Of a stretch of DNA of 57,831 nucleotides, positions 10,299 to 29,026 are shown one piece after another. The position numbers were made by a program, and so were the translations under genes. The DNA is from an uncultured Acholeplasmatales bacterium (GTDB lineage Bacteria; Bacillota_I; Bacilli_A; Acholeplasmatales; UBA5453): positions 1 through 57,831 of the forward strand of contig CAKMJY010000056.1 in NCBI GenBank assembly GCA_927433595.1, written 5' to 3'. How positions within the stretch are numbered: position 1 is the first letter of the stretch; each line of letters starts with the position of its first letter. The notes beneath the pieces are model-generated. The model was not told the DNA's origin and made no database searches. It saw nothing but the letters and a program-made list of their open reading frames with translations.

Positions 10299-10357
10299 AA
10301 TATCCTCCTATTTTTCGTTATTTAAGCATTAAACAACCGCTTAAGCTCTTCATTTTC

Positions 10358-10385: not shown

Positions 10386-10508
10386 AATGATACGCTTTAA
10401 AACAGTTTGAACTACAAATAATATTACATAATTTGGCTTATCTGTTAGTCATACAAGGCTATTTACTCAAATAGAAATAAATACATATGGCATAAAAAAT
10501 ATTCAAAC

Positions 10509-10531
10509 GATACCTTGACAGGTTAGGTATC
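10509..10531 (+). promoter_or_regulatory. PadR-type operator overlapping the -35 box
   Basis: GATACCT (10509-10515) and AGGTATC (10525-10531) are a perfect 7-base inverted repeat, with TTGACA (10515-10520) as the -35. A further AGGTAT half-site is at 10562-10567. The -10 is weak (around 10538-10544). The site suggests autoregulation by the PadR protein encoded second in the operon. Confidence 0.55.
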
Positions 10532-10577
10532 TATATGTTACTTTATATACATAGTCAGATTAGGTATGGAGGATACT

Positions 10578-11786: not shown

Positions 11787-11810
11787 ACAATCAAGAATGG
11801 AGGGGTTGAT

Positions 11811-12134: not shown

Positions 12135-12140
12135 TTTGAA

Positions 12141-12168
12141 GGCTGCGTATCTTACGCGGCCTTTATTA
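12141..12168 (+). terminator. Terminator after the PadR operon
   Basis: GGCTGCGTA (12141-12149) pairs with TACGCGGCC (12153-12161), with one G-T wobble, across a 3-base loop, followed by TTTATT. Confidence 0.7.
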
Positions 12169-12498
12169 TAGCCTTATAAGTTTTTTTCTTCGATGACATG
12201 TAAAAACTTCTAACCACTAGCGTAAACACAATGATATAAATTGCCCATTGATCACAACTAAATCGATAGCTACCATATAAGAAAAGATAACCGAGATGAG
12301 AATCTGAGTATAACCTTTTAGTATGTTTTTCCTAATGACTACGACGCTTAACAATATTGCTAGGTTTGGTAGATTGTGCATCAAAATACAAAAGAATTCC
12401 ACTGAAAAAGACACGTCTTCAAAGCTGTTAAATGACATAATCGTCATTAACACAATGAATACTAACCAAGCATTTATAGAATACAGAGTGATTTTCAT
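12152..12498 (-). pseudogene. Small membrane protein, probably frameshifted
   Basis: An open frame from the ATG at 12498 to a TAG at 12217 encodes 93 mostly hydrophobic residues with three or four membrane segments. Its last codons look unnatural (INGQFISLCLR). The neighbouring frame downstream continues as QWAIYIIVFTLVV followed by SSKKKTYK, a typical final membrane helix with a basic tail, ending at 12152. A single-base indel near 12240-12270 would join the two. This reading is an inference. The alternatives are an intact 93-residue protein or a sequencing error. The ribosome site is weak. The organisation resembles small four-helix membrane proteins of unknown function. Confidence 0.4.
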
Positions 12499-12535
12499 CT
12501 ACTAATCATTCTAGCGTATTTATACACCTATAAAC

Positions 12536-12558
12536 ATAAAAAAAACCCGATTAGGGTT
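12536..12558 (-). terminator. Terminator of the VTT-type membrane protein gene
   Basis: On the minus strand, AACCC and GGGTT (12544-12548 with 12554-12558) form a short stem followed by an eight-base T run. It touches the stop codon at 12557. Confidence 0.55.
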
Positions 12559-13198
12559 AGTTTTCAATCTTCTTTTCAAAATAAATCAATAATAGTTTTT
12601 GTATGAGTACCATGATAACGGTGAATGCTACCCCAATAATGGTTAACCATAAAATGATCCAACCTGTATTGACGCTTGTACCTGCAATCACGGCTCTATG
12701 AATAAAGTATGTGGTAAATAAGAATCTCAAACCGCGACTAACGATAGTAGATAATAAGTAGGTTGTAAACTTCATCCCACCCAATGATACCGTAAACAAG
12801 ATCACAAAGAATGGCAGTGGTGTCATGGCAAATATAAAGACTGCCCAAAAACCATATCGATTGAATAGCTTCTTGGCCTTATCTTGATTTTTTTTACTCA
12901 CAATCTTACGGTAAAAGAAGTTGTCCTCTTTCGCCATAAATAGATATACAATGACTGCACCTAGTGCATTTGCTAAAACAAGGTTTAGAGTCAGTAGAAG
13001 CCATCTGTCTGGACTATCTATAATCATTGGTACTAAGAAAAATTCAACACCAGCCAAGGGTGTAATGGTTTCAATGATGGAATATAAAAATAGACCTAAC
13101 TCGCCAAATCGTCTGAAGAATGCAATGATTGGGTCGATCCAATGAGAAGCATCATCGATGCTGGATGCTAGTAATAAAATTTGATTCAAAATATGCAT
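12557..13198 (-). CDS. VTT-domain (DedA/YqaA-like) membrane protein
   Basis: The protein has 213 residues and about five hydrophobic segments. The central region has the SNARE-associated/VTT pattern of the YqaA branch: an N-terminal acidic re-entrant loop (SIIETITPLAGVEFFLVP) and the later TPLPFFVILFTVSLGGMKF with conserved prolines and glycines. Such proteins are thought to act as lipid scramblases or transporters in the membrane. AAGGGG precedes the ATG. It stands alone on the minus strand. The exact substrate is not visible. Confidence 0.8.
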   Translation of the reverse strand: MHILNQILLLASSIDDASHWIDPIIAFFRRFGELGLFLYSIIETITPLAGVEFFLVPMIIDSPDRWLLLTLNLVLANALGAVIVYLFMAKEDNFFYRKIVSKKNQDKAKKLFNRYGFWAVFIFAMTPLPFFVILFTVSLGGMKFTTYLLSTIVSRGLRFLFTTYFIHRAVIAGTSVNTGWIILWLTIIGVAFTVIMVLIQKLLLIYFEKKIEN

Positions 13199-13426
13199 TA
13201 AATATAGCCCCTTTATACTTAAAGGCTTAATCGCCCTTATTGATTGTATATGATTATTGGTTAAAAATCAAATATAATTGATTAATCTTTAAAAACAATG
13301 ATAATCCGGGATTTTTTACAGTTTATTCATAAAAAACTAGCATTTTTTTACAATTATGATAAAATGTTATGTGATGTTAAACATAAACATGTAACCGGTT
13401 GTATAAACTTAATCTATGGGGGAAAT

Positions 13427-14362
13427 ATGAATCAATATTTTTTGGATGCAAAAAACAAACTAAAGAAAGAACACAATATCGATGTCATCGAAGACATTCT
13501 TTTAAATAGGGAAGATCGTATCATCGCTTATGCGGATATTAGTAATCCAAATCATATTGAACTTTTTGTCATATCCGGGTCTTTTACTTTAATCGGTCTT
13601 GAAGATAGAAAAAGCTATACTTTACAAGACATCATCCGATTATTCGAATACGACAATGCTTATGTTGAAGTTGCCGGCAAAGCAGAATATAGAGCATACG
13701 TGAATCAAAGATTATTCTATTTCAAGGATGACTCGGATGTCACTTTTCCAATCAGCGTCAATGACCAAAAAGTATGGATTAAAATTAGTAGTTATCCAAT
13801 TCTTAAAAAACCTAATATTTGTACGTTTTTCATCTCCAATAAGTCTGATATCATGGTGCATGAAGAAGCCTCATATACGAAAACACATCGAGATGCATTA
13901 ACGGGGTTATTTAATAAGTACACATTAGATTATCAATATGGCCAACGATATGAAAGATCTAACCTACACGTCTTTTATTGTGATATTGATGATTTCAAAA
14001 CAGTAAATGATACAGATGGCCATAAAGCAGGCGATGTTGCCTTAATGTCATTTGCCAACATATTAAAGTCACATGAAACCGAATATGACCGATTCTACCG
14101 AATTGGTGGCGATGAGTTTGTCGGGCTATTTTTCGTTACAGAAGAAAAAGCCAAAGCCATTGCAGAGGATATCTTAAGTAAAACCAGACAAATCAAATCG
14201 AAGTTTTCGCAAATTTCATTAACCGTCTCGATTGGCGTGGTAAAAGCAGAACAAAGAGAAGATGTTATAAGAAAAGCTGACGTTATTTTATATCAAGCAA
14301 AAGATAACGGGAAGAATCAATTTAAGTATGAACTAGAATCTAATATACTATTGGCCTTGTAA
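13427..14362 (+). CDS. Diguanylate cyclase (GGDEF)
   Basis: A soluble N-terminal PAS-like sensory region (about residues 1-145) precedes a complete GGDEF domain (about 150-305). It shows DALTGLFNK, the metal loop FYCDIDDFK, NDTDGHKAGD and an intact IGGDEF signature, so synthesis of cyclic-di-GMP from two GTP is expected. No RxxD inhibitory site is seen before the signature. The start is placed at 13427, behind GGGGGA at 13418-13423. The in-frame extension up to 13298 contains the likely promoter (TGATAAAAT at 13357-13365), so it is not translated. The protein is 311 residues and cytoplasmic. It lies 1.5 kb upstream of the surface-protein operon. Confidence 0.92.
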   Translation: MNQYFLDAKNKLKKEHNIDVIEDILLNREDRIIAYADISNPNHIELFVISGSFTLIGLEDRKSYTLQDIIRLFEYDNAYVEVAGKAEYRAYVNQRLFYFKDDSDVTFPISVNDQKVWIKISSYPILKKPNICTFFISNKSDIMVHEEASYTKTHRDALTGLFNKYTLDYQYGQRYERSNLHVFYCDIDDFKTVNDTDGHKAGDVALMSFANILKSHETEYDRFYRIGGDEFVGLFFVTEEKAKAIAEDILSKTRQIKSKFSQISLTVSIGVVKAEQREDVIRKADVILYQAKDNGKNQFKYELESNILLAL

Positions 14363-14377
14363 ATAAGGCCTTTATTT
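14353..14377 (+). terminator. Terminator overlapping the GGDEF stop codon
   Basis: GGCCTT (14353-14358) and AAGGCC (14365-14370) enclose the stop codon and are followed by TTTATTT. Confidence 0.65.
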
Positions 14378-14394
14378 ATGCCTAATAACTCATA

Positions 14395-14446
14395 AATTAT
14401 AATTATTATCATTAGTGTTGAAAAATAACTTGTCATCCTTTATAAT
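14395..14446 (+). promoter_or_regulatory. zupT: zupT promoter
   Basis: TTGAAA (14418-14423), 17 bases and TATAAT (14441-14446) form a strong promoter. The AT-only stretch just upstream (14395-14414) vaguely resembles a Fur/Zur-type box, but it is too simple in composition to call. Confidence 0.75.
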
Positions 14447-14479
14447 CTATTCATAAATAATATATATAAGGAGTATACT

Positions 14480-15271
14480 ATGTCAGATTTTTGGTTTGCA
14501 TTACTATTAACCATATTTGCAGGTCTATCCACCGGTATTGGTGGGTTACTTGCTTTTCATAAAAAAGCATCAAGTCACACATTTTTATCATTCAGTTTAG
14601 GTTTTTCTGCAGGTGTGATGATTTATGTATCCTTTGTCGAGATTTTCGTTAAAGGAAAAGATGCATTATCACAATCTTATGGGGTAAAGACGGGGTATAT
14701 CTATACGACGATTGCCTTTTTCCTAGGGATACTTTTAATTGGTGTCATCGATAAATTGGTACCTGAAAAAGAAAATCCTCACGAACCTAAAGACCCAGAT
14801 GATTTTAAATTTAAAGAGAAGACACTACTTAGAATGGGCTTATTTAGTGCACTTGCGATCGGGATTCATAATTTCCCAGAAGGGCTTGCGACCTTCATTG
14901 CAGCACTAGATGACAGAACATTAGGGGTAGGGATTGCGGTTGCAATCGCGATCCATAACGTACCAGAAGGTATTGCAGTAGCCATCCCAATATTTCATGC
15001 GACAAAGAGTAAGAAAAAAGCTTTCGGTTATGCCTTTTTGTCCGGATTGTCTGAACCAATTGGGGCATTGATTGGCTATTTATTGCTAAGAACATTTATC
15101 TCGGATTCGTTATTTGGATTTGTCTTTGCATTTGTTGCAGGGATTATGGTATATATATCCATAGATGAACTCCTACCAACTGCGGAAAAATATGGTAAAC
15201 ACCATGTGGTGATTTATGGTTTGTTAGCAGGTATGGGGTTAATGGCACTAAGCTTAATTTTATTCATGTGA
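14480..15271 (+). CDS. zupT: ZIP family metal transporter
   Basis: This 263-residue inner-membrane protein has about eight hydrophobic segments. The two ZIP metal-binding helices are clear: [10 protein letters not shown] (about residues 130-139) and [10 protein letters not shown] (about 159-168), the signature of the ZupT branch that imports zinc and other divalent cations. A charged cytoplasmic loop ([12 protein letters not shown], about 96-107) lies between helices 3 and 4. It has a clear promoter and an AAGGAG ribosome site. A DUF1801 gene follows after 7 bases, probably in the same transcript. The metal preference cannot be told from sequence alone. Confidence 0.92.
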
Positions 15272-15278
15272 GGACACG

Positions 15279-15620
15279 ATGACTATAGAACAATACAATC
15301 AACAATTTGATTTAGATTTGATCGTAAAATTAAATGAACTAACGCAATTATTAAGGCAATTAATGCCAGGTTGTGAAGAAACATTTGCTTATCAAATGCC
15401 AACATTCAAAGTTAAAAAGAATATCATCCATTTTGCAGTTCAAAAACATCACATCGGTATATATCCAGGACCAGATGCAATTGCTTATTTTGAATCTGCT
15501 TTGAAAGACTATAAACATGCTAAAGGCAGTTTTCAAGTGCCTTTTAATAATGATTTGCCACTAGAATTGATAGAAAAAATGGTAAAGTATAATTTAGAAC
15601 TTATAAAAAGACAATCATAG
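15279..15620 (+). CDS. DUF1801 (YdhG-like) protein
   Basis: This is a 113-residue cytoplasmic protein of the DUF1801 family, structurally related to frataxin-like YdhG proteins. The diagnostic segments are MPGCEETFAYQMPTFK (about residues 29-44) and HHIGIYPGP (about 57-65), plus the C-terminal GSFQVPFNNDLP. It lies 7 bases behind zupT with GAGG upstream of the ATG, so co-expression with metal uptake is likely. Some members are named iron chaperones by analogy, but the function is not established. Confidence 0.85.
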   Translation: MTIEQYNQQFDLDLIVKLNELTQLLRQLMPGCEETFAYQMPTFKVKKNIIHFAVQKHHIGIYPGPDAIAYFESALKDYKHAKGSFQVPFNNDLPLELIEKMVKYNLELIKRQS

Positions 15621-15694
15621 GCACAATCAATTTTAAAAGTAGTGAATATATTAAACTGAATCAATTTAGGCATAAATTTGCTGCAAATTATGTG

Positions 15695-15723
15695 TGTGTC
15701 GACACAATTATGTGTATACACAT
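15695..15723. promoter_or_regulatory. Twin palindromes upstream of the surface operon
   Basis: TGTGTCGACACA (15695-15706) and ATGTGTATACACAT (15710-15723) are perfect palindromes of 12 and 14 bases with centres 16 bases apart. Both contain TGTGT/ACACA half-sites. They end about 40 bases before the -35 box, a position typical of an activator or cooperative regulator. The protein that binds is unknown. Confidence 0.6.
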
Positions 15724-15761
15724 GCATTTTTTCGACATTTTTTTGGCGGAAGTACTTCAAA

Positions 15762-15791
15762 TTGACTTACAAATGAAGTGAATGGTATAAT
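15762..15791 (+). promoter_or_regulatory. Promoter of the surface-fibre operon
   Basis: TTGACT (15762-15767), 18 bases and the extended -10 TGGTATAAT (15783-15791) make one of the best promoters in the window. An ACTTCA/TGAAGT inverted repeat (15754-15759 and 15774-15779) spans the -35. It drives the genes from 15851 to 25556. Confidence 0.8.
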
Positions 15792-15850
15792 TTGACTATC
15801 ACAAAATGACAGTTATTTTGTCTGCACTATGTGGGAAAGGGGTGGACGAG

Positions 15851-16495
15851 ATGAATCATAAATCAATGAGTGTTTCTATAATCATGCTTGTGCTATCTTT
15901 ACTCCTTTTTACAGCGTCCAGTTTTGCGTGGTTTGCGTTATCAGATGCAGCCAAAGTAGACCCGTTTATAGTTGAGGTAAATGAGTATGAAGCGGACATT
16001 GTTTTTCAAATCAGTAAAAACGGTGGTGCACCTCAAACACTAATAACACAATCAGAAATCGCACAATTCTTAGCAAATAGTGTACCGTCTGATTATTTTG
16101 ACTTTGTAATCACAGTTGAAAATTTATCCAGTACTCAAGTGACTGCAAGCATTTATTTTAATGATATCTTATCGACAACATCCGATAGTAACTATGACAT
16201 GCGCGATGTTTTTTTGATTACAGATGGCTTATTAAGCGTGAATGCCTCTACTAATCCAATCCCACAAAATGATCCTACAGCTGTCACTAAATATGGTCAA
16301 TTGTTATCCAACTACCGCTTATCAAATTTGATTGATGGCTCGAATGATTTTATGATCATAGAAGAAATAAATCTTTCAATCGGTCAAACCGTATTCATTG
16401 AGTTTGGTTTAACTTATCATGAAACCACAGAACACATGGCTTACCAAGGTGGTATCTTAACCATTGGTGGCTTATATGTGGTCTTTGATACTTAG
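15851..16495 (+). CDS. Exported TasA/camelysin-like protein 1
   Basis: A signal-peptide-like helix (about residues 8-30) ends in SFAWFALSD and is followed by DPFIVEV, the pattern shared by the next three genes. The rest is beta-rich (VENLSSTQVTASIYFND) like the core of TasA/CalY fibre proteins. No C-terminal membrane segment and no cysteine are present. The start at 15851 follows GGGGTGG. A start at 15806 would lie only about 15 bases from the -10 box and would add the operon's only cysteine, so it is rejected. The protein is 214 residues and first in a five-gene operon. Family assignment rests on general pattern and is not certain. Confidence 0.65.
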   Translation: MNHKSMSVSIIMLVLSLLLFTASSFAWFALSDAAKVDPFIVEVNEYEADIVFQISKNGGAPQTLITQSEIAQFLANSVPSDYFDFVITVENLSSTQVTASIYFNDILSTTSDSNYDMRDVFLITDGLLSVNASTNPIPQNDPTAVTKYGQLLSNYRLSNLIDGSNDFMIIEEINLSIGQTVFIEFGLTYHETTEHMAYQGGILTIGGLYVVFDT

Positions 16496-16505
16496 GAGGA
16501 CGATG

Positions 16506-17096
16506 ATGAAAAAAAATAAACTTGCCTTAGTCCTTTCCACTATCACACTCATGTTGACTTTAACGGCCATCGTTACATTGATTTATGCTTACTATGTCGA
16601 TACTGAAACGACAGAACCCATTGAGTTTGTAGTAGGGGATGTATCATTCTTATATCAAGGTGACTTAAAAGAACAGTTGGTCATACCGGGTGAGAACTTA
16701 GTCTTAACCCCATTAGCACTGACAAATCAATCCTCGATTTTAACTGAATTGAGAATGAAAATAGAAGTAACGTCAACCGTTACAGGTTCGTTAGCATTAG
16801 ATGACATATTCATCCATGACTTAAGTAGCGATTGGGTATTAGAAGTGGATGGGTTTTACTATTATAGAGGGCTAGATACAGATCAAACAGAAATTGGAAA
16901 ACATAAAATTCTAACTTCTACAACTAGTATCGCTATCATATCCAATCTAGAACTAGATGGTTATGTCATTAGAAATGAACATGAGGGAGAAACTATCACC
17001 GTCAAAATCACATTTCAAGCAAAACAAGCGGATTATGTGAACTGGGCAACACTCGGTTCACAAAACTACGATTTTACTACAGGCACATCCAGTTAG
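16506..17096 (+). CDS. Exported TasA/camelysin-like protein 2
   Basis: A hydrophobic N-terminal segment (about residues 7-26) ends in IYAYYVDTETTEPIEFVVGD and leads into the beta-rich run PGENLVLTPLALTNQS. This resembles the fibre proteins in which GxL/GDV and PG-turn segments follow the signal sequence. It has 196 residues, no cysteine and no C-terminal anchor. The start at 16506 has AGGAGG at 16494-16499 with a 6-base gap; the ATG three bases earlier is too close. The gap to the previous gene is 10 bases, so it is co-transcribed. It probably forms or caps extracellular filaments together with its paralogues, by inference only. Confidence 0.65.
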   Translation: MKKNKLALVLSTITLMLTLTAIVTLIYAYYVDTETTEPIEFVVGDVSFLYQGDLKEQLVIPGENLVLTPLALTNQSSILTELRMKIEVTSTVTGSLALDDIFIHDLSSDWVLEVDGFYYYRGLDTDQTEIGKHKILTSTTSIAIISNLELDGYVIRNEHEGETITVKITFQAKQADYVNWATLGSQNYDFTTGTSS

Positions 17097-17108
17097 GAGG
17101 GGTGATTC

Positions 17109-17681
17109 ATGAGAACAAAATGGCAACTTGGATTAAGTATTGTGCTTTTTAGCGCGATTTTAGTGTTGGTTGCGTTATTTAGTTATGCATGGATTATCGC
17201 GACATTTAAATCAGACCCAATTATTGTTGAAACAGGCACACTCGATTTAGATTACACATTCAGTATAGCGAATGATACCAATCATGATGGCATATTGGAT
17301 GGTGGATATGTTGAGATTACAGCAGGGGGATTAACATTTAATGAAGTCATCCCTGGTATGGTTTATACATACCGACTAGAACTAACAAATTTAGGATCCA
17401 TTAATGGTCACTTAGATATAAGTATCCAAGATATCTTGCCTTCATCTGTTGGTATGAATCAAGCGTTGATCATAAAGTATATTAACCCAGTTACCAGTCT
17501 ACCGGTTGAAACGCTGTTAGATTCAAGTACTGAAACCTTATTTCAAAATTACGTTTTAATTAGTACAGGTAGTTTAATATTTGATTTTACGATTACCATA
17601 AACCCTGAACTTGGGAACATCAACCAAAGTGAATCAATCCTAATATCGTATTTTGAACTCAGACTAGACCAAATCATTTAA
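17109..17681 (+). CDS. Exported TasA/camelysin-like protein 3
   Basis: This is the clearest TasA-like member. After a signal helix (about residues 7-28) come SYAWIIATFKSDP, IIVETGTLDLDY and then FNEVIPGMVYTYRLELTNLGS. That matches the family order of a post-signal GTLDL strand, a PGM/PGD turn and an L.LTN.GS strand. An aspartate-rich loop (NDTNHDGILDGG, about 55-66) could bind calcium. It has 190 residues, no cysteine and no C-terminal anchor. AGGAGG precedes the ATG, 12 bases after the previous stop. No SipW-type signal peptidase lies nearby, so processing would depend on a gene elsewhere. Confidence 0.7.
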   Translation: MRTKWQLGLSIVLFSAILVLVALFSYAWIIATFKSDPIIVETGTLDLDYTFSIANDTNHDGILDGGYVEITAGGLTFNEVIPGMVYTYRLELTNLGSINGHLDISIQDILPSSVGMNQALIIKYINPVTSLPVETLLDSSTETLFQNYVLISTGSLIFDFTITINPELGNINQSESILISYFELRLDQII

Positions 17682-17691
17682 GGAGGACAAC

Positions 17692-18357
17692 ATGAAAAAG
17701 CTATTAATCGCAATGACATCCATTTTCATACTACTAGTTGCGTCAACGCGCTTTTTTGTGCTAGCCTATTTAACAGATCAAGACGTCACGGAAGAACCAC
17801 TATTGATTGGTGATGTTGAAGTCGATTATGACATCTATTTTGACAAAGATGGCATCTTATATCCAGCCACTGAAGTGGTGATTGATGAAAATCTTAATAT
17901 CACCAAACCTGGTGTTTATAGCGTCAACGTCACAGATGCCCAATCCATTAATTTTATCGAGCATTTACGTATTCGATTCTTTGTATCTTCAAATGTGGAT
18001 ACTTACATTAGGATTCAACTCATTGATTATTTATCGTTAACCCTTGAAAACTTCGAAGGCATCATCACAGAGATTCCAATTGTTGGTCAAGAAACCGCAT
18101 TTAATCATGTGTCCACTTGGTATGACTATCAAGCTACCGATGGGTATTACTATTTGATGAATCCAGTAAAACAAGTTAGTGTCACCACACCTTTAACAGT
18201 GGATTTCATTAATGCGTATTTTCCTGGTGTGAATTACAGTGCTAGACCGATTGGTTATGCCCTTCAACTTGGCATCAAGATTGAAGCGGTTCAAGCGGTT
18301 AGGGGCCCACAAATGCGTTGGGGTCTAGCAAATCCACCATGGGGAGGTAACTGGTAA
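17692..18357 (+). CDS. Exported TasA/camelysin-like protein 4
   Basis: A signal-like helix (about residues 4-26) ends in FVLAYLTDQDVTEEPLLIGD. The paralogous strand pattern VEVDYDIYF follows, with an acidic FDKDG loop. The middle and C-terminal part (about 75-221) is longer than in the other three and ends in an unusual RGPQMRWGLANPPWGGNW, rich in Trp, Pro and Gly. It has 221 residues and no cysteine. AGGAGG precedes the ATG. The stop overlaps the start of the giant protein gene (TAATG), so the two are translationally coupled and may interact. The function is inferred from context only. Confidence 0.6.
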   Translation: MKKLLIAMTSIFILLVASTRFFVLAYLTDQDVTEEPLLIGDVEVDYDIYFDKDGILYPATEVVIDENLNITKPGVYSVNVTDAQSINFIEHLRIRFFVSSNVDTYIRIQLIDYLSLTLENFEGIITEIPIVGQETAFNHVSTWYDYQATDGYYYLMNPVKQVSVTTPLTVDFINAYFPGVNYSARPIGYALQLGIKIEAVQAVRGPQMRWGLANPPWGGNW

Positions 18358-21300
18358 TGAAGAAAATCATTAAAATCACCTTAAGTAGCCTCATGGTACT
18401 TTTATTAGTTGCCATGTTTTCAAGTAAACCAATCCAATCTAATGTGGATGATACAACGTTTGAATTTGGCAATCACAGTTTTGATCCAATTACACCTTCA
18501 ACCTTGGATACAAGCTATGTGACTTATACGAATTTTAGGTTAAATATTGCGAATGCTGCATCTACTGCTGCAAGCATTATTACTAATATGGCCGGTAAAA
18601 AGGTTAGAATCGATACAGCTGAAGAATTGTATCGATTTAGTGTCGATGTCAGTTACCATGCGGATCAAATCTATATCACAGGTAATCCGACAGAAGACGT
18701 TAAGTTAAGTAGCGATAAAATTGGTGCGCTATTGTCTCTTGATTACGTATTAGGTAATGATATTGATTATTCAGTCATGCAATCTAGACAATTCATCCCA
18801 ATTGGTTATAGTTTTTACTCATTAAACCTAACCTTAAATGAAAATAAGTTTACAGGAACATTTGATGGTAGAGGGTTTGAAATTTCAAACCTGTATTTTG
18901 CAGGATATAATCTGTTGACTACCATTGAAGGTACAGGAGAAGAAGCCCAAGATTTGGCCATCACACCTTATTATGCGATGTTTACATTTAACGAGGGTGA
19001 AATCAAAAACTTAGGTTTGATTAACCCGACTTTAGAAATCAAATACGAACACGAAGATTTAACCAAAGCTGCTACCCTAGTAGGTAAAAACAGTGGTATA
19101 GTCGATCATGTTTATGTGATTGATGCAAGAACCAGTGCCACCACAGCCGGCATTAGAATGAAAGCTGCTACAGGGATTGGGGTCTCAAGTTATGAAGCAG
19201 CTGGCGTTATTTACAATAATACAGGTACATTTACCAATGCGTATTATGTATCACCAGTCGTTGTGAATGCATCCTATATTACTAACTTCCAAGTCCAACC
19301 AGTCTTGTTTTACAATACTGGGACTGCAACAAACTTATACTATGATCAGACGGTTTATTTAACGACAATTAATATTAGTGGTCAAACATTTAATGTGAAT
19401 GCTGTTAATGGGCTTAACACACCTAAAACAACCACGCAACTTAAAACAGGTCTAGCCACTGGTAATTGGTTTTATTATGCATCTGACCGATACCCATCTT
19501 TAATGGGCTTAGTCTATAGTAGTGGCAGTTATCTCATTTATGATGCGATTGATTTAATCGCATTCTCAAAGATGATTAACTATATCACGGTTAAAAATGG
19601 TCAACCATTTAGACAATCAGATTATTTGGTCATGGATGATTTAGATATGTCACAGGTTGCTGCCGGCGCATATAAAACACCTGAAATTGAGTTTTCTGGC
19701 TCTTTAAAGGGTAATAGCTTGGTTGGCAATTACTACATTAAAAATTTAGCATTAACCAATGGCACTGCGTTTAGTGAATACTATGCAGGCTTATTTAGTG
19801 TGCTTTCAGGTGAAGTATCTTACTTAACCTTCTCTAATGCATCCATTACAATTACCAATAGTGCGACTTATTATTCACTGCCGTTTTATATTGGGGTGGT
19901 TGCAGGTAAATTGGACAATGGGATCGTTTCAAATGTTTCGGTATCCGCCAATATCCAATTAGGCTCAACCTCAATCGGAGAAACGTCAGTCGGTAGCATC
20001 GTTGGTGAGGCTTCAGGGACAATCACAAATGTGTACGCAGAAGGGACACTTAATGCCGGTGAACATACATTTACAACAGGTCAAAGTGTCATACCTACCT
20101 ATTCAATAGGTGGGTTAGTTGGGAAAACAGGTGCAACTGCTTTATCCTTGTACAATGGGTTAAATCATACGACAATCACAGGAATTTCTACCACGGCATC
20201 TGTCACAACCACACCAGTTTCTATTAGACTTGGTGGTGTCGTTGGCTATGTCGAAAATACAAGTACTATTAAACACATGATTGGCTTGGTATCCAATAAC
20301 GCAACCATCACACCAAAAACCTATCTAGCATCATCTACTGTAAGTCAATATGTTGCTGGTGTCATTGGCTTAAGTGCAGGCGCAAGTAATGAGTTGACCA
20401 ATCAGTTTGGACTTTGGACCAATGATGGTTTACTAGATTTCACACAAAGAGGGTCAAATACAATTTATAGTGCAGGTGTTGTCGTAACAAATCATACCGC
20501 ACAATCAGAATACATTTTCCTTTACAACCATGAGACATTTACAACCAGTAGTTATACAGGTTTAACTTATACTACTTTATTATTAAACCTCTCAACATCA
20601 GGGATTACATTATCTCAATCTGAAAATACTGCCGATACAGATATTAATACCAGAATCGATTTTTCAGGGGTATATCATTCCACTGAAGATGCCACCTCTT
20701 TATTAAGATTTGTTGAAAATAGTGGCGATATCATATTCCATCCAACTACCTTAACGACTGAAACTAAAATCAGCGGAATTACCTTATCCAACAATGTAGA
20801 CTTCCTAAATGTGACAATGTCAGGTGATATCAAAGCTTACAATATCGGCACGTCTGCTCAACTATGGTTAGCTGGGTTTTCTACTAACTTATCAGCTGGA
20901 AGATATATCAAGAATGGTTTGCATGACGGCAATATTATCATTGGTGGTATTAACTCATCCACCAATGAATCCACTGCACAAAATATCTATTTAGGTGGAT
21001 TTGTCAATATCAACCAATCTGGTGATTTAAATCAACAAGATGGGTCAAACTTACCAAAAGCAACCATCGGTATCATCAATAGTGTGAATAATGGCGATTT
21101 TTTATCCAAGTATGATAATACCTATTATGGTGTTAGTGGGGCGGCAAATGTCTTTGTTGGTGGTATATCGACCCTAAATTCAGGTTCTATTCAAGACTCT
21201 GTTAATCTAGGTCATATTAAAGTATCTAACACGAGCGGTTATGTCAGTAGTGCAGTAACTTATAATCCGGATTCTAGTTATGGTGGCCGTGTCACCAAGT

Positions 21301-24300
21301 TTAGATATGCAGTTATCGCAGGTGGTGTATCTGCCGCAGTTACCGCTGGGACATCGAGAATTTATGACGTTGTGAATAGTGGTGATATCATTGCGATATC
21401 TGCAAACTTTACACGTTCAGGTGGGATTTTAGCCCAAGCCCTTTACGAAGAGTTACAAAGTGGTTTGGTCTCGTCTACCCTATTTAGTACAACCATTCCT
21501 TCCTCAATTCTATCTAATAGTTTAAACTATGGTAGTGTGGTTGCCTTAACACAAAATATCCATATTTACAGCACAACACCTTATAATCTAACCACAACAT
21601 ATTTCTTTAATGGCTCACAGCGAAATAGCACAGGTGTATCTAACTTAACAACCACGTATGGCACTGAAGAACGTCCAGGTATTTCAGCATCAGCGGGCGG
21701 AGTCATTGGTTATGGGCTAAGTGTCATGAGAAGAATGATCAATCATGGTGAAGTCTCATCAACCGATGTCGCAGGCGGTATCGTTGGTGCATCATTTGTA
21801 TGGGAATCAGATGCGACAACGGTTGTATATATTGATACAGCCTTAAACTATGGTTCGATTAGAGCTATTAACAATAATCTTTACAGTCAAATTGATAAGA
21901 AAGACATTGAATACACACAAATTCAATCCGCATTTTATGCAGTCGACAGTACATTTATATTTCCAACACCAGCATCATCCGCAGGTGATTTAAGAAAGTT
22001 CCCTGAAGGAAAACGCGGTATTGGTGGGATATTTGGTAGACTTCAACGTGGGGTTAACCAAGTTATGACATCAGCTGGTGGGACATTTGACTTTATCGTC
22101 AACTTTGATGAAAATGTCGACTTAATTGGTCGACTTGACCAAGTTATGAACTGGACGTCATCCTCTAGATTCTTTAGATTCAATAATGCGAAATATTATA
22201 GTGCTAAGTATAATGATACGACGCAAGGTGTTTTTACTGGTTACTATTATTTCTATGATTCGTCATCATCTAATATTCAAAGAACAACTAGATATAGAAC
22301 ATATATTCTAAAAGAACGTTACACATATGAAAACAGAAGTGGCACATGGTATTTAGTAACTGATCGCTATTATGAAAACAGAAGTGACGTCGAACATTAT
22401 GGTGTCCTATCGAGACAAGTTGGTAGTACAATGAATACTTTAGGCGTACAAACGCGTATTCGTGAATATTCATCGGTTACAGCATCTGGTTGGTATTTTT
22501 ACCAAGAACAGGCACTACCTGCAGGTACATATACAGCTGGCACGACTGAACAACTAATTAATCCAATCGTGACATTAAATAGTAGTTCGAGTACAGCAAA
22601 CCTTGGGTCACCTTACTATTTCTTTAACGATGTGTTGCCGGTACCTGTCATCACTGAAGATGATGATTTTGCATGGATGGGTGATTATGCATATGACCCT
22701 AACTTTGAAATGCGTGATGATAGTACATTATTAAGTAATGGTCAGCCTATTACTTCATATATTTATTACGCGGAAAATGGTCTTTTAGCAAGCAGATTCT
22801 CTAGTTCAAGAACCAATGGGATGTATGTACTTTCAACCTCATCCGGTTCAGCTTTCGGTTCTGTATTACCAGCTAACTTGGTCCTAACCAATTTATACCC
22901 ATTAGATGGCATGCAACCATATAATACAAACTATGAAACAACCATTAACCGTGTGCCGATTGATCCAATCATTTCAACGGCATATTACGGGTTACTTCAA
23001 ACCGCATATAGCGATAAATCGGCACTACTTGAAACCAATCAATATGTCGCGATGAGTGAAAATGGTGGGTCACAGACGAAACTTTTAAACCCAACCATCG
23101 ATTACAACAATAAAATCATCACATTTACATTGTCACTCGATTTGATTGCGAGCGGTCAAACATCGATTAGTTATCAATTAACCGATGCATTGATACCTGC
23201 TAATGCCTTAATTGCAGAGCGCATAAGCGATTATTATAGTGGTAGTCCAATTAATTATGCTGAGTACCAAGATTTATTAGAAGCAGAAGCCGATAGTGGG
23301 ATTGCTTCTACATTAGCACCGGTATTAACCACAACCTTACCAAATGTACCGAATGGTGGTTCACAAACCATTACGTTAGGTTATTTCACATCTTATTCTG
23401 AAGCAGCTGTTTATAATGCGGCCTTCATCAATTCAACTTATACCACCGATTATCAGGTGAGGTTAAATGTATTAGGTAGAGCATCCAGCTTGCCTCAACC
23501 ATATTTATACTCAATTGATGGTGGTACAACTGCATCATTTACGGAAAATCAAGTGTTCACTCAACCTGTATCATCGACGTTAAGGCTAATGTTCGATGAT
23601 CAATCGCCATTTGTTTTAAACACAGGCGCAGACATCAAAGAATTTATTAGACTTGAGTATCAAAATGAACTGGTTGAATTATCTGATTATGGGCTTACAA
23701 CCGTACCTGTTTATGGACAGTGGAATGACTTTGAATTTACGATTACCTTAAATCCCAATCTGCGGGATGGTGAGTATAAGGTCTATTACAAGTATTACTA
23801 TGCCGATACGGAGAAAGTGATTACTTTCACGAAAGCAAGTTCTACTGCAAGCAACATTGAAAGCTTATCTTATTATTCGTCTGGTACAGTGACACCTGTC
23901 GGTACCACGTTTACATCGTATGTCGATTTCGGGTTTGATTTAGGGTTCTCTAGTGTTACTTTTACACCAAATACCAATACAGACCCATTACTAAAACCAT
24001 ATCAAGATAATATGTCTTATGATATTTCATTTATGGATAGTTTTACCCTAGCACCGTTTGCAACCCTGATTTCAACGACTTATAATGGCGTTAGTTATGT
24101 CAATGGGTATCGTGTTTATCAATTACTTTATACCATTGAATCTGAAAGTGGCGTTCAAACTGTTTATACACATAACATTCAAGAACGACCAATTGATATT
24201 ACCAATATATACAAAAATAACAACAAAGTATTGATTTCTAATGTTTTCGCAACTAGAGAAGCTTTACAAACCAATTTCGCGGTTGACTTTGGGATTAACG

Positions 24301-25556
24301 AATTGGTATCTGAACAAATGTATAATCTATTTGAAGATGATCCAAATGCTTACTTCTCAATTACCGTAGATGCAGTCGATTATGATTTAAACCCAATGCC
24401 AGCACTGGATATAAAGGGCATCACCTATTCAGCGGATAGCTTCTTAAATATCATCATGAGTAATCAAACATTACCAGGCTTCTACACATTTACATTTGAG
24501 TATATTAGAGCTGGTAATGCCATTCAATTTACCCAATTGGTGATTGAAAAGAAAGAGGGTATCAGTGCGTATTTAACAGATATTCAGTTCTCAGAATCCG
24601 CTACTGAAACCGATTATGCCGACATGAGTGTTGCTAACCCTGATGGGTCAGTAGACACAACATCGACCTATGACCCAAGTATTTACTTTGCCGGGATCGA
24701 CTATGATGGTTCACAAAACATCGTGTTCAATTACCGCGTAGATGGCCAAGTTTCCAATACGCCATTAAATGAATTTATACCATTCTTCCTAGAGTTCTTA
24801 CCAGCTGGGGCAACCATTTCAAGAAAAGTTTATCCACTTGAAAATCCGTCCATCTCTTGGACCAGTGAAGTGACAAATGCATCAGACCCTGCTATAAAAG
24901 CAGAACTTGCTGCTGACTTTACAATTATGCCAGATACTGGCTTAGAACCAACTGAACTTGAAGACGTTGTAATCACATACCGCGTCACATCTGAAAATGG
25001 CTTAAATGTGGTCTACTACCATATTACGGTTATTGACATCATATATAATGTATCACTCATCTTTGACGTTTATTATGATGATAATGGCGTACCTATTGAA
25101 GCGGCTAACTCAGAACTCGCGAACAAAGTTGTTTTAATTAACGTTAGAAACTTTAATACCGATGTGGCAGTGACAACCTCACTAGCTCCAACGGTTGCTG
25201 ATTTTCCAACATTCACAACCATTGGTACAACCAATAACTCGATTTATATGTTTTATGTGGGTAATAACAGTAACTACCGTTACCGTTACGGTAGAAATAT
25301 ATCCGGGTTCTACGGGTTTGAAGTACTCTTGCCTAAAGATCCAAACGGCAATGACTATACCTACTATATTACATTTGATGGCGATACATTAAGTGATTTA
25401 AGTAGTTATGTTACCGGCACCACTGGCAAATATTTCTATATCAACGGTGGGACAAAAAACCGTACCAGACGGTTTGAAATTCACGTCGTTAGAACCAATC
25501 AATCAATCGATAATGGTTGGGGATTAGACGATGATTCTGATACATATTTTGATTAA
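18357..25556 (+). CDS. Giant GLUG-repeat secreted surface protein
   Basis: This 2,399-residue protein has an N-terminal signal sequence (about residues 1-30). From about 160 to 1230 it carries many GLUG-type beta-helix repeats: FTGTFDGRGFEISNLYF, VGKNSGIVDHVYV, VGSIVGEASGTITNVY, VGGISTLNSGSIQDS, GGVIGYG and GGIVGAS. Such repeats are typical of bacterial adhesins. A Tyr-rich segment with two YENRS copies (about 1278-1350) precedes a C-terminal half (about 1400-2399) of repeated beta-sandwich-like regions rich in Ser, Thr and Asn. It has no cysteine, no LPxTG motif and no C-terminal membrane helix; the end is acidic (DDDSDTYFD). It is coupled to the fibre-like gene upstream, which may provide attachment. 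The start has GGGGAGG 10-15 bases upstream. Confidence 0.8.
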   Translation: MKKIIKITLSSLMVLLLVAMFSSKPIQSNVDDTTFEFGNHSFDPITPSTLDTSYVTYTNFRLNIANAASTAASIITNMAGKKVRIDTAEELYRFSVDVSYHADQIYITGNPTEDVKLSSDKIGALLSLDYVLGNDIDYSVMQSRQFIPIGYSFYSLNLTLNENKFTGTFDGRGFEISNLYFAGYNLLTTIEGTGEEAQDLAITPYYAMFTFNEGEIKNLGLINPTLEIKYEHEDLTKAATLVGKNSGIVDHVYVIDARTSATTAGIRMKAATGIGVSSYEAAGVIYNNTGTFTNAYYVSPVVVNASYITNFQVQPVLFYNTGTATNLYYDQTVYLTTINISGQTFNVNAVNGLNTPKTTTQLKTGLATGNWFYYASDRYPSLMGLVYSSGSYLIYDAIDLIAFSKMINYITVKNGQPFRQSDYLVMDDLDMSQVAAGAYKTPEIEFSGSLKGNSLVGNYYIKNLALTNGTAFSEYYAGLFSVLSGEVSYLTFSNASITITNSATYYSLPFYIGVVAGKLDNGIVSNVSVSANIQLGSTSIGETSVGSIVGEASGTITNVYAEGTLNAGEHTFTTGQSVIPTYSIGGLVGKTGATALSLYNGLNHTTITGISTTASVTTTPVSIRLGGVVGYVENTSTIKHMIGLVSNNATITPKTYLASSTVSQYVAGVIGLSAGASNELTNQFGLWTNDGLLDFTQRGSNTIYSAGVVVTNHTAQSEYIFLYNHETFTTSSYTGLTYTTLLLNLSTSGITLSQSENTADTDINTRIDFSGVYHSTEDATSLLRFVENSGDIIFHPTTLTTETKISGITLSNNVDFLNVTMSGDIKAYNIGTSAQLWLAGFSTNLSAGRYIKNGLHDGNIIIGGINSSTNESTAQNIYLGGFVNINQSGDLNQQDGSNLPKATIGIINSVNNGDFLSKYDNTYYGVSGAANVFVGGISTLNSGSIQDSVNLGHIKVSNTSGYVSSAVTYNPDSSYGGRVTKFRYAVIAGGVSAAVTAGTSRIYDVVNSGDIIAISANFTRSGGILAQALYEELQSGLVSSTLFSTTIPSSILSNSLNYGSVVALTQNIHIYSTTPYNLTTTYFFNGSQRNSTGVSNLTTTYGTEERPGISASAGGVIGYGLSVMRRMINHGEVSSTDVAGGIVGASFVWESDATTVVYIDTALNYGSIRAINNNLYSQIDKKDIEYTQIQSAFYAVDSTFIFPTPASSAGDLRKFPEGKRGIGGIFGRLQRGVNQVMTSAGGTFDFIVNFDENVDLIGRLDQVMNWTSSSRFFRFNNAKYYSAKYNDTTQGVFTGYYYFYDSSSSNIQRTTRYRTYILKERYTYENRSGTWYLVTDRYYENRSDVEHYGVLSRQVGSTMNTLGVQTRIREYSSVTASGWYFYQEQALPAGTYTAGTTEQLINPIVTLNSSSSTANLGSPYYFFNDVLPVPVITEDDDFAWMGDYAYDPNFEMRDDSTLLSNGQPITSYIYYAENGLLASRFSSSRTNGMYVLSTSSGSAFGSVLPANLVLTNLYPLDGMQPYNTNYETTINRVPIDPIISTAYYGLLQTAYSDKSALLETNQYVAMSENGGSQTKLLNPTIDYNNKIITFTLSLDLIASGQTSISYQLTDALIPANALIAERISDYYSGSPINYAEYQDLLEAEADSGIASTLAPVLTTTLPNVPNGGSQTITLGYFTSYSEAAVYNAAFINSTYTTDYQVRLNVLGRASSLPQPYLYSIDGGTTASFTENQVFTQPVSSTLRLMFDDQSPFVLNTGADIKEFIRLEYQNELVELSDYGLTTVPVYGQWNDFEFTITLNPNLRDGEYKVYYKYYYADTEKVITFTKASSTASNIESLSYYSSGTVTPVGTTFTSYVDFGFDLGFSSVTFTPNTNTDPLLKPYQDNMSYDISFMDSFTLAPFATLISTTYNGVSYVNGYRVYQLLYTIESESGVQTVYTHNIQERPIDITNIYKNNNKVLISNVFATREALQTNFAVDFGINELVSEQMYNLFEDDPNAYFSITVDAVDYDLNPMPALDIKGITYSADSFLNIIMSNQTLPGFYTFTFEYIRAGNAIQFTQLVIEKKEGISAYLTDIQFSESATETDYADMSVANPDGSVDTTSTYDPSIYFAGIDYDGSQNIVFNYRVDGQVSNTPLNEFIPFFLEFLPAGATISRKVYPLENPSISWTSEVTNASDPAIKAELAADFTIMPDTGLEPTELEDVVITYRVTSENGLNVVYYHITVIDIIYNVSLIFDVYYDDNGVPIEAANSELANKVVLINVRNFNTDVAVTTSLAPTVADFPTFTTIGTTNNSIYMFYVGNNSNYRYRYGRNISGFYGFEVLLPKDPNGNDYTYYITFDGDTLSDLSSYVTGTTGKYFYINGGTKNRTRRFEIHVVRTNQSIDNGWGLDDDSDTYFD

Positions 25557-25616
25557 GGCACTCATTTATGAGAGCCTTTTCGTATACTAAGACTAGGAGT
25601 TATTCTCTTAGTCTTT
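25555..25616 (+). terminator. Two tandem terminators ending the surface operon
   Basis: The first hairpin pairs AAGGC-A-CTCAT with ATGAG-A-GCCTT (25555-25578), overlaps the stop codon and runs into TTTT. The second pairs AAGACTA (25589-25595) with TAGTCTT (25609-25615), followed by TTATTTTT. Confidence 0.75.
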
Positions 25617-25986
25617 TATTTTTATATAATTGGTAGTAAAATGAAGGCGAAGGCGTAGTTAAACAATTTGAACTTCGAGTTCGTAAAAACTAGTATACCT
25701 TTGAGTATTTATGATAGTCTACGCCTTCCTATGATTTACTACGAGCTAAGAGAGATGACTCTTGGCTTTTCTTTTTTATAGGCATATAGAAAAGAAAGTT
25801 TGAAAGGAAGGACGTGAGCTTTTTTGAACCTTGAGTTCGTGAAAAAAAATGTCCAAAATTTCAGTTTATACACGAAACTAGTTTAGATCTAATGGTGTCA
25901 ATGAACACGTATGAACAACGAAAAAAAGTAAGTGTATTCCAACTGAAACGAACCGTATCATCTAACAAAGAAAGGTGGTAATTACT
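25617..25986 (+). ncRNA. IS110 left-end non-coding region, candidate bridge RNA
   Basis: About 370 bases without a gene precede the IS110 transposase, the position where IS110-type elements encode their structured bridge RNA. GAAGGCGTAG (25649-25658) pairs perfectly with CTACGCCTTC (25719-25728). A hairpin GCTAAGAG/CTCTTGGC (25745-25766) followed by a T-rich run could end a transcript of about 130 bases. Two imperfect repeats carrying GAACttcgAGTTC and GAACcttgAGTTC lie at 25668 and 25824. RNA identity and ends are inference; the exact left end of the element was not found. Confidence 0.35.
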
Positions 25987-27186
25987 GTGAAGAGTCCATG
26001 TGTAGCAGTGGACGTATCAAAGGGAAAGAGTTATTATCAAGGGTTTATTGAAATAGATAAACCAGCTAACAAAGCGACACCTATCGAGCACGACTTAGAG
26101 GGGTTTAAGTCTGTGTATGAATTAGGTCAAACATTGAAGGAAACGTATAGCGATGTCGCCTACGTATTTGAATCAACTGGGATCTATCATAAAGCGTTAG
26201 AAACATTTCTTATGAATCATGATGAAAAGTGTATTATTCTAAATCCTTTAGAGGCTTCAAAAATTCGTAAAACAGACTTAAGATCGACTAAGACAGACGC
26301 TAGGGACTGTAAGAGTATCGCTAAGGCATACTTCATGAAAGACTTTAGATTACACGATCAAAAAGATGAACTCTATGAGAAACTTCATAGTATGAATGGA
26401 CATTACAATTTTCTTATTCAGCAGTTAAGAGAAATGAAGGTCCATTTTAGAAATGCCTTAGACATCGTGTATCCAAGGTTCGATGTAGTTTATCCAAATC
26501 CTTATTTGGACATTCCCATGTCAATCTTAAAGCGATATGCTCATCCAGACGAACTAAAGAATAAGCGCTTCGAAACAATTGTGAAGTATATCATGAAAGA
26601 TACCAAACATAGAGAACCAAAAGCAATGGATGAAGCTAAGAAACTCAAAGGTTATATTGACAATGTGTCTTCAGGTTGTCGTAGTAGTTCCTTTGAAGTG
26701 ACCATTCTAAAGACTATGGTTAATAAGATCAGTGATCAAGAAGTTGAAATCGAGTTATGTTTGGATGAAATGAGAGAATTAGTGAGTGAAGTACCGCTTT
26801 ATCATCAATTGATGAGTATTCCAGGCATCGGAGACAATCTCGCAATCAGACTCATTGGTGAGTTAGGTGATTTAGACCGGTTTGAACGTAGTGAACAACT
26901 AGTCGCCTATGCTGGTATCGATCCTAGAGTGTATCAATCTGGTCAAATGACAGGTGAACATCTACACATTACGAAGAAAGGTAATAAACACCTAAGGACG
27001 TTATTATTCTTGGCTATGTCGAGTAATGTGAGAATTGGAAAAACAAACATAATTTTAGATTTTTACAACAAAAAAAGGCAACAAACGAACCCTCTCGTTT
27101 ATAAAGCTGCCTTAATTGCCTGTGCCAATAAACTACTCAGAATAATCTTTGGCATGTATAAGAGTGGAAAGAACTTCCACAAATAA
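25987..27186 (+). CDS. IS110 family transposase
   Basis: This is a DEDD-type recombinase of 399 residues. The N-terminal domain has VAVDVSKGK (first catalytic Asp), FESTGIYHKAL with the Glu, and TKTDARDCKSIA with the last acidic pair. The C-terminal Transposase_20 domain has the helix-hairpin-helix-like SIPGIGDNLAIRLIGELGD, AYAGIDPRVYQSG and a serine-bearing AMSSN segment. The GTG at 25987 lies 8 bases behind AAGGTGG and is preferred over the GTG at 25975, which overlaps that site. It appears intact. The long non-coding leader and short downstream sequence fit the IS110 branch rather than IS1111. Confidence 0.92.
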   Translation: MKSPCVAVDVSKGKSYYQGFIEIDKPANKATPIEHDLEGFKSVYELGQTLKETYSDVAYVFESTGIYHKALETFLMNHDEKCIILNPLEASKIRKTDLRSTKTDARDCKSIAKAYFMKDFRLHDQKDELYEKLHSMNGHYNFLIQQLREMKVHFRNALDIVYPRFDVVYPNPYLDIPMSILKRYAHPDELKNKRFETIVKYIMKDTKHREPKAMDEAKKLKGYIDNVSSGCRSSSFEVTILKTMVNKISDQEVEIELCLDEMRELVSEVPLYHQLMSIPGIGDNLAIRLIGELGDLDRFERSEQLVAYAGIDPRVYQSGQMTGEHLHITKKGNKHLRTLLFLAMSSNVRIGKTNIILDFYNKKRQQTNPLVYKAALIACANKLLRIIFGMYKSGKNFHK

Positions 27187-27400: not shown

Positions 27401-29026
27401 ATGAGTCAAAGTATTTACCGAGAAATTTCTGGGTCTTTCTTTAAGAAAAAAGAAGTCAGATATGGAGTTGGCGTTTTGATTATGCTAGCATTGCCTTTAG
27501 TATATGCACTAGTATATGCAACAGGTGGCATTACCTACGTGTATTCTCATACGATGTATATACCTATTCTTTTAGCAGGTATCTTTTTTGGACCAAAGTT
27601 TGGATTGGCGATTGGCATCATTGCAGGTATCTTACTAGGGCCAATCATGCCTTTAAGTGTGGCCGATGGTACCAATCAAGAGTTAGCCAATTGGTTATAC
27701 CGGTTCTTTATTTTCTCTTTAATGGGATTAATCAGTGGGTATGCTTCTGATGAACTCAGAAAAAGTGCGGTAAAAATTGATGCACTATCTTCCATTGATC
27801 CAGAGACGCTTATTCCAAATACCAATTTCTTGAAACACATGAATAAAGTCATGTTAGAAAAAGAAGTTAGCTTAATCACGATTTTAGTTAATAACATCGA
27901 TTCTATTACAGACATATTAGGTGTAGATGTTTATCATCAATTACTAAAAGACCTACACTTGGATTTCACACATCAAAGTAGAGAAATGCTGATGATTCAA
28001 CCAGATAGTAATAAGTTATGGTTGATCATTGCGAAAACCGACATTGAATCAGATTTAAACTACATCATGCAGATATTAAATAAATCGAGGACAGTCCATC
28101 AAATTCCACTATATGTAGACTATGCAGTAGGTATAACATCAACCATTTGTGTTGAACAACACTTAGATATCCAAGCCTTTTCTGAATGTGATATTGCGGC
28201 ACGTCACGCACAAATTAATAACTTGCCGACGTTCATTTTTGACGATGGTAAATTAAAAAAACGCAGTGATTATGAACTGATTTCAAGCTTTACTCAAGCA
28301 CTTGAACAAAATCACACATTCTTAATGTATCAGCCAATCATGGATTTAAAGACCAATAAAGTTAGATCCATTGAAGCGCTCATCAGATGGGAACATCCTA
28401 CTAAAGGATTAATCATGCCAGACCGGTTTATTCCGCTTGTAGAAGAAACTAAACTCATTCATTTACTAACAGATTGGGTTGTTGAAAAGGCTTTATTAAT
28501 GCTTAAAAAAATGAGTGATCAAGGCTTAGATACCGGAATCTCTATTAATGTATCTGCCAAAAACTTATATGACCCGTTATTTTTTGACCGTACGATGGCG
28601 ATCATTAAAAAGCATAAAGTAGATATTAGTAAACTCGAAATTGAAATCACTGAAACCGAACTCATGGTCAATCCAGCAGAAGCAAAAGAAGTCTTAAACC
28701 AATTTGCGAAAGAAGGCTTGAAAGTTGCACTCGATGATTTTGGTTCTGGTTATTCATCCCTGGCTTATCTCACACAGTTTCCACTGGACGTCATTAAGAT
28801 TGATAAGATTTTTATGATTGACATCTTAACGAGACCTCAAATTAAGCAAATCGTTTCAGCAACGGTCGCTTTATCCAGGGAACTTGGGTATAAAGTGGTT
28901 GCTGAAGGGATTGAAGACAAAGAAACGTCTGATTACTTGACGTCAATTGGGTGTGATTATGCACAAGGCTATTATTATGCCAAACCAATGCGTGAATTAG
29001 ATATCCTAAAGTTCATGATCCAATAA
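27401..29026 (+). CDS. EAL-domain cyclic-di-GMP phosphodiesterase, membrane bound
   Basis: Several hydrophobic segments (about residues 20-120) precede a strongly degenerate GGDEF-like region (about 128-285, no GGDEF signature) and a complete EAL domain (about 290-540). All catalytic elements are visible: EALIRWEHP, the Asn in INVSAKN, EITETEL, ALDDFGSGYSS, the Lys in IKIDK, VAEGIED and CDYAQGYYY. Hydrolysis of cyclic-di-GMP to pGpG at the membrane is therefore expected. TATAAT at 27357-27362 and GAAGGTG before the ATG support expression. It lies just beyond the IS110 element and 1.8 kb from the surface-protein operon. Confidence 0.92.
   Translation: MSQSIYREISGSFFKKKEVRYGVGVLIMLALPLVYALVYATGGITYVYSHTMYIPILLAGIFFGPKFGLAIGIIAGILLGPIMPLSVADGTNQELANWLYRFFIFSLMGLISGYASDELRKSAVKIDALSSIDPETLIPNTNFLKHMNKVMLEKEVSLITILVNNIDSITDILGVDVYHQLLKDLHLDFTHQSREMLMIQPDSNKLWLIIAKTDIESDLNYIMQILNKSRTVHQIPLYVDYAVGITSTICVEQHLDIQAFSECDIAARHAQINNLPTFIFDDGKLKKRSDYELISSFTQALEQNHTFLMYQPIMDLKTNKVRSIEALIRWEHPTKGLIMPDRFIPLVEETKLIHLLTDWVVEKALLMLKKMSDQGLDTGISINVSAKNLYDPLFFDRTMAIIKKHKVDISKLEIEITETELMVNPAEAKEVLNQFAKEGLKVALDDFGSGYSSLAYLTQFPLDVIKIDKIFMIDILTRPQIKQIVSATVALSRELGYKVVAEGIEDKETSDYLTSIGCDYAQGYYYAKPMRELDILKFMIQ

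Follow-up and report, generated by a model that had tools for sequence, protein, structure and literature searches.

The operon g1-g4-giant was found in a 57,831 nt stretch of contig CAKMJY010000056.1 from an uncultured Acholeplasmatales bacterium. This whole stretch is referred to as the window, and g1-g4 and giant are the five genes under study. Wall-less bacteria share a conserved gene system of which the operon makes up one half. The other half, which carries the dedicated peptidases and a motor-like membrane protein, is located elsewhere in the genome. We take the source organism itself to be wall-less from its taxonomic placement and general knowledge. On balance the operon is likely to be the cargo half of a SipW/CoCoPALM surface-fibre system in which g4 couples the giant protein to TasA-like subunits. 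The whole gene system is probably a surface-fibre-building machine not yet studied. The source genome assembly was 1.59 Mb in 133 contigs and 86% complete. Loci are labelled L, genomes G and contigs of the source genome C. The five genes, identified as open reading frames (ORFs) with the additional evidence shown, were as follows:

15851-16495, + strand: g1, exported protein of 214 amino acids (aa) with an apparent SipW-type signal (SSFAWF) and a predicted beta-rich body (orthologues in synteny)
16506-17096, + strand: g2, exported protein of ~196 aa (IYAYYVD), TasA/camelysin relative (hhalign)
17109-17681, + strand: g3, exported protein of 190 aa (FSYAWII), probable TasA relative (hhalign, orthologues)
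17692-18357, + strand: g4, exported protein of 221 aa (LAYLTD) with the conserved tail EAVQA..GP..WGL..PPWGG.W (hhalign, giant adjacency)
18357-25556, + strand: giant, secreted protein of 2,399 aa (full-length homologues)

The genes are packed tightly: neighbours lie 10-12 bases apart or overlap by one base, and the ribosome-binding sites are good. In each of g1-g4 the only membrane-spanning stretch encoded is a hydrophobic helix at the N-terminus, after which come AW or AY and then DP or EP. A first-pass annotation of this DNA had described four consecutive small genes with a common layout and a giant gene after them, and the coordinates and signal features confirmed this. It had also placed the stop of the last small gene over the start of giant, which was borne out by the one base common to g4 and giant.

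The small proteins had been likened to TasA and CalY fibre proteins. After removal of the signal helices, family alignments of their relatives were compared using hhalign to a set of eight PF12389-type proteins, none of them from this order. Controls were 30 column shuffles per family and one reversed alignment each. Against the PF12389 set g2 gave 97.3% (P = 1.6e-11, 148 columns), g4 gave 95.1% (P = 3.4e-8, 169 columns) and g3 gave 84% (P = 7.5e-6, 82 columns). No column shuffle of g1-g4 was above 1.4%, the best shuffle for g2, g3 and g4 was ≤0.6% and the reversed alignments were ≤0.2%. Between the small proteins g1 and g3 aligned at 97.6% over 163 columns, as paralogues, and g2 and g4 at 93.5%. 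A g2 homologue from another family (L164) exceeded the PF12389 cut-off (27.5 compared to 22.5 bits), while the g2 orthologue of L031 fell below it at 20.5 bits. The window proteins had no match to the TIGR04088 signal model at E ≤ 5, and the L031 g2 orthologue scored 16.9 against a cut-off of 19. Nothing above cut-off was found in PHROGs, NCBIfam or Pfam for g1-g4 or giant. No TasA chain was found in PDB sequence searches with g1, g3, the g1-g4 profiles or a PF12389-type profile. By profile comparison g2 and g4 are firmly placed as TasA/camelysin relatives and g3 is a probable TasA relative. The tie of g1 to these relatives is indirect, through g3 alone. The TasA/CalY assignment thus stood for g2 and g4, to a moderate degree for g3 and at one remove for g1.

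No sipW gene was present in the window, and the first-pass annotation had noted the lack of a SipW peptidase nearby. This was correct within the window, but the source genome encodes two SipW-type peptidases on contigs C24 and C96, and in other genera such genes lie upstream of g1. Absence of SipW from the organism was accordingly rejected, and the apparent absence is an artefact of viewing one contig. The gene order on C24 is two GGDEF-EAL genes, A (256 aa), B (FAWA), C (FAWF), sipW1, AAA, D and sipW2. B and C have clear SipW-type sites. The sipW1 product matched NF046067 (3.7e-20) and TIGR02228 (60.6-61.6 bits). SipW1 and SipW2 both have S-x-S-M, and H-R where housekeeping signal peptidase I has K-R. 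An ordinary K-type signal peptidase I is encoded on C62. C24 terminates inside sipW2, and 115 identical bases overlap the end of C96 (L005:174-7546, L006:13475-14063), so the two contigs can be read as neighbours. When joined they contain a complete sipW2 of 216 aa followed by a convergent TetR gene. No sortase was detected in the source genome.

The AAA and D genes are flanked by sipW1 and sipW2. AAA (L005:2254-3783) encodes a Walker A motif (GISGTGKT), a Walker B motif (IVLDELN; DE(L/M)N in the family) and NKDD, which fits both NxD and NxxD. Its N-terminal segment is hydrophobic by inspection. Matches of AAA to McrB models were weak. For D, a homologue in another locus (L156:6888-8117) matched PF09823 (DUF2357) above the cut-off at 1.1e-15. 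DUF2357 is the N-terminal domain of McrC. Pfam alone missed the D of the source genome, in which no Pfam domain and hence no nuclease domain was found, but a model built from D sequences joined it to the L156 homologue at 4e-29. AAA is a probable McrB relative, and D is related to McrC. AAA also matched the PADLOC candidate defence family PDC-M26A (2.2e-35). Despite this candidate anti-phage match, AAA is surrounded by genes for surface proteins and peptidases, and automatic defence calls on the AAA family may mislead. Relatives of McrB-McrC with a membrane segment, linked to genes of the signal peptidase family, were named CoCoPALM by Bell et al. (2024), with their description deferred (PMC11090510).

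The two halves of the system were joined in other genera. Orthologues of g1, g2, g3 and g4 occurred in the same order with identities of 42-57%, 37-49%, 43-48% and 31-43%, respectively, evidence that the unit is no chance arrangement. Conserved gene order in relatives had been set in advance as a test on which the proposal could fail, and the order was strongly conserved, with g4 directly 5' of giant in 49/49 loci (48/49 by automatic labelling). The exception in the automatic labelling, L044, was due to g4 being masked by an antisense ORF. Within the same genus the A...sipW2-TetR order recurred in L166-L168, and g1-g4-giant stood apart in L035-L037, beside a ZIP transporter, the position that it also has in the window. 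In other genera sipW2 was followed directly by g1 (L031, L032/L049, L039/L076 and others). The full order in L032/L049 was A-B-C-sipW1-AAA-D-sipW2-g1-g2-g3-g4-giant. A third small peptidase was located within the cargo half in L031, L039/L076 and L164. Among loci with at least 8 kb of upstream sequence, 10 had SipW and AAA upstream and 14 had neither. AAA was found elsewhere in the genome in 14/14 genomes chosen from loci without AAA near giant. Across the class AAA was present in 110 of 296 sampled genomes, some of them in lineages whose final protein differs. In G042 and G046 two proteins are encoded after sipW2, the first having a TasA-like signal and the second, of 708-745 aa, matching CBM_5_12, and G032 had a similar arrangement.

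Other arrangements were also observed. In other Acholeplasma-like genomes (L160:10779-13611, L161:10655-13509 and L171:10683-13557, the last in reverse-complement coordinates) g4-giant was replaced by a 206-234 aa FAWF protein and a 708-745 aa protein, two of the latter matching CBM_5_12. L064:9092-28469 contained g4-giant, two downstream GGDEF/EAL homologues and A-C-C-C-sipW1-AAA in one stretch. This locus bridges the split and joined arrangements.

The giant protein has an N-terminal half rich in Gly, Asn, Thr and Ser with spaced GG motifs, and contains no cysteine. Its signal looks ordinary, and it has no second membrane span and no C-terminal membrane anchor. Its C-terminal tail is WGLDDDSDTYFD. 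Full-length homologues had identities of 30-46%. The description of giant as a GLUG-repeat adhesin was not confirmed. PF07581 (GLUG) did not match giant at E ≤ 5 or eight homologues at E ≤ 0.1, and GLUG as Pfam defines it was rejected, leaving the spaced GG motifs only. Giant resembles GLUG-repeat (PF07581) adhesins in the Gly-rich repeats and GG motifs of its N-terminal half, but it and the eight homologues differ from them in having no Pfam GLUG match.

The tail of g4 listed above was shared by most g4 proteins. The pattern [WFY]G[LF]x5-6[WY] ended 31 of the 40 giant ORFs with the 3' end present, and two of the nine exceptions were broken fragments. A slightly looser form of the pattern was found in 1/351 unrelated ORFs. 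Both proteins had the tail in 23 loci, neither in six, giant only in two and g4 only in none (Fisher p = 3.8e-5, a value that overstates independence as the loci are related by descent). The genes g4 and giant are coupled genetically. Because the adjacency is invariant and the tails are shared, the proteins may also be coupled physically, and the similar W-G-L...W tails may be a common docking or sorting feature. With an ordinary-looking signal and no anchor of its own, giant would most naturally be joined to the fibre or membrane by g4. The giant gene was broken in two cases, into 550 and 1782 aa in G005 (L042, reverse-complement 8779-15902) and into 1132 and 1494 aa in G034 (L076:8515-16461). 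These are possibly pseudogenes, phase-variable genes or assembly errors.

In the proposed mechanism g1-g4 would be Sec-exported precursors of the TasA superfamily, cut by the SipW-type (Ser-His) peptidases of C24/C96. SipW2 would release mature g1-g4, exposing a free N-terminal strand. Mature g1-g3 would then polymerise outside the cell, probably by a TasA-like exchange of N-terminal donor strands. TasA subunits are joined via an N-terminal strand (PMC9674648). BsaA of C. perfringens forms a SipW-processed, sortase-independent filament, with sipW in the operon (PMC7395162). In the monomer model of g1, residues 32-43, after the signal helix, had a predicted local distance difference test score (pLDDT) below 50, and this stretch would suit a free donor strand. 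As a dedicated adaptor, g4 would couple giant to the fibre or keep it at the cell surface. Giant would be the large adhesive component, and housekeeping signal peptidase I probably acts on its signal. Gene order suggests that the probably membrane-anchored, McrB-like nucleoside triphosphatase (NTPase) and its McrC-like partner may assist, power or gate export or assembly. The neighbouring genes suggest that cyclic-di-GMP probably regulates the system.

A number of results weigh against this reading. The peptidases and the AAA/D pair lie outside the window. None of g1-g4 met the PF12389 cut-off, with no match at E ≤ 5, and neither did any protein of the source genome. In hhalign g1 reached just 20% against the PF12389 set. 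Structure models were obtained for g1 (pLDDT 85.9) and g4 (pLDDT 93.9). The fold search with g1 returned the TasA fibre 8aur_A in fifth place (probability 0.99) among other beta-sandwich proteins, but the TM-score was 0.35, under the usual 0.5. The confident g4 model had no significant PDB match. The predicted structures contributed little and fold evidence for a likeness to TasA was weak. The data establish export type, homology and gene linkage; cleavage, polymerisation, coupling to giant, anchoring, energy use and regulation are inferred.

An alternative is a non-polymeric surface complex, with g1-g4 and giant as a membrane-tethered coat or adhesin cluster with uncleaved helices and no fibre. 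The four subunits differ and are of modest mutual similarity, rather than being one abundant major subunit. Giant would have to be retained by partners, as it has no membrane anchor at its C-terminus and no sortase was detected in the genome, and the g4 model is confident and compact with no TasA match. However, dedicated SipW-type peptidases are conserved with their substrates across genera, favouring cleavage, and g2 and g4 belong by profile to the TasA superfamily, whose studied members (TasA, CalY) form filaments. Such a coat is considered unlikely, though it is the strongest of the alternatives. Unprocessed membrane residence of the small proteins was rejected as the principal explanation and kept only as part of this rival.

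A defence or conflict system, in which the McrBC-like pair would be the effector and the surface proteins would serve to decoy or sense phages, is improbable. It would account for the McrB-like AAA with its NKD motif and PDC-M26A match (2.2e-35), and most homologues of McrBC belong to Type IV restriction systems (PMC11090510). Set against this, no Pfam domain and hence no nuclease domain was found in D, the cargo is a giant adhesin-like protein, and the module is widespread (110/296 class genomes) and its neighbouring genes are conserved, whereas a defence island would be patchy. It is less probable still, and already disfavoured, that g1-g4 are unrelated secreted beta-rich proteins with a convergent A-[WY] site, SipW serving only B and C of C24. 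The clear SipW-type sites of B and C beside sipW1 and the 20% of g1 would fit such convergence. It conflicts with the alignments of g1-g3 (97.6%), g2-g4 (93.5%) and g2 and g4 to PF12389 (95-97%) with controls near zero. It also conflicts with the position of sipW2, and sometimes of a third peptidase, inside the g1-giant module in L031, L039 and L164.

The surface-fibre system was compared to those already known. Like Bacillus tapA-sipW-tasA and B. cereus TasA/CalY/CapP (PF12389), it has Sec-exported subunits with apparent SipW-type signals, a dedicated SipW and no sortase, with profile homology for g2 and g4. The Bacillus systems have one or two subunits, whereas four divergent subunits and a 2,399 aa partner are present here. 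The system here also differs in its wall-less relatives, in the location of the peptidases at another locus in this genus and in the attached McrBC-like pair. The C. perfringens sipW-bsaABCRSD operon likewise combines SipW with several small exported proteins, and its sortase-independent BsaA filaments build a pellicle biofilm. No giant or McrBC-like pair was reported in that operon, which is under a two-component system, in contrast to the apparent cyclic-di-GMP genes here (PMC7395162). CoCoPALM shares the DUF2357 partner and the linked signal-peptidase-family genes, and its McrB-like NTPase with an N-terminal membrane segment has a probable counterpart in AAA. No TasA-like substrates or g4-giant pair were found in the main text of the paper that gave the name, and a further difference is the separate cargo locus in this genus (PMC11090510).

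The first-pass annotation had raised the possibility of an undescribed system that anchors itself. TasA/SipW fibres and the CoCoPALM name are known, but no description was found of their combination with g4-giant. In the open-licence literature the CoCoPALM mention was the only trace of the gene combination found, and an account in a subscription journal could be missed; no further open-licence papers under that name were found beyond PMC11090510. The system is real, conserved and under-described, with parts of known kinds, being a variant of the TasA/SipW fibre and probably the cargo of CoCoPALM. The core picture of the first-pass annotation is largely correct. The system links three subjects so far studied apart, namely fibres of the TasA type, peptidases of the SipW type and the as yet unexplained relatives of McrBC called CoCoPALM, and the g4-giant pair provides concrete candidate substrates for CoCoPALM. 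A bolder and only tentative proposal is that a McrBC-derived NTPase and SipW build a TasA-like heteropolymer carrying a ~260-kDa adhesin via g4, under cyclic-di-GMP control and widespread in wall-less or wall-poor Bacilli. If true, a relative of McrBC would have a role outside immunity, and fibres would be built with neither cell wall nor sortase. Wall-less Bacilli have no peptidoglycan and this genome no detectable sortase, which puts the display and anchoring of large surface structures at issue. Because the system is also present in a named strain of Paracholeplasma vituli, the idea can be put to the test.

The first-pass annotation had bounded the unit by one promoter and two terminators, and the following sites were present:

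15762-15791, + strand: promoter-like site TTGACT-18-TATAAT with an extended -10 (TG), just 5' of g1 (consensus scan, 11/12 matches)
25589-25615, + strand: terminator-like hairpin after giant, 11 pairs and a T-run
25743-25768, + strand: second terminator-like hairpin, 10 pairs and a T-run

Promoter-like sites in the region were no commoner than in shuffles (60 compared to 68), while terminator-like sites were commoner (15 compared to 7.8 ± 3.1). Both hairpins are 3' of the unit, and no terminator-like site was detected in the interval from the upstream gene to g1. The start of g1 was set at 15851 because only 15 nt separate the -10 from the in-frame ATG at 15806.

The operon is flanked in the window by a GGDEF gene (13298-14362) and an EAL gene (27401-29026), as the C24 cluster is preceded by its GGDEF-EAL genes. 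Cyclic-di-GMP genes are directly 3' of giant in many Izemoplasmatales loci. As such genes neighbour the loci, regulation of the system by cyclic-di-GMP is suggested. A single-copy transposase of the insertion sequence IS110 type (25975-27186) lies between giant and the EAL gene. In G002 (L038), of the same genus, an EAL homologue is directly 3' of giant, and the IS110-type element therefore looks like a later insertion.

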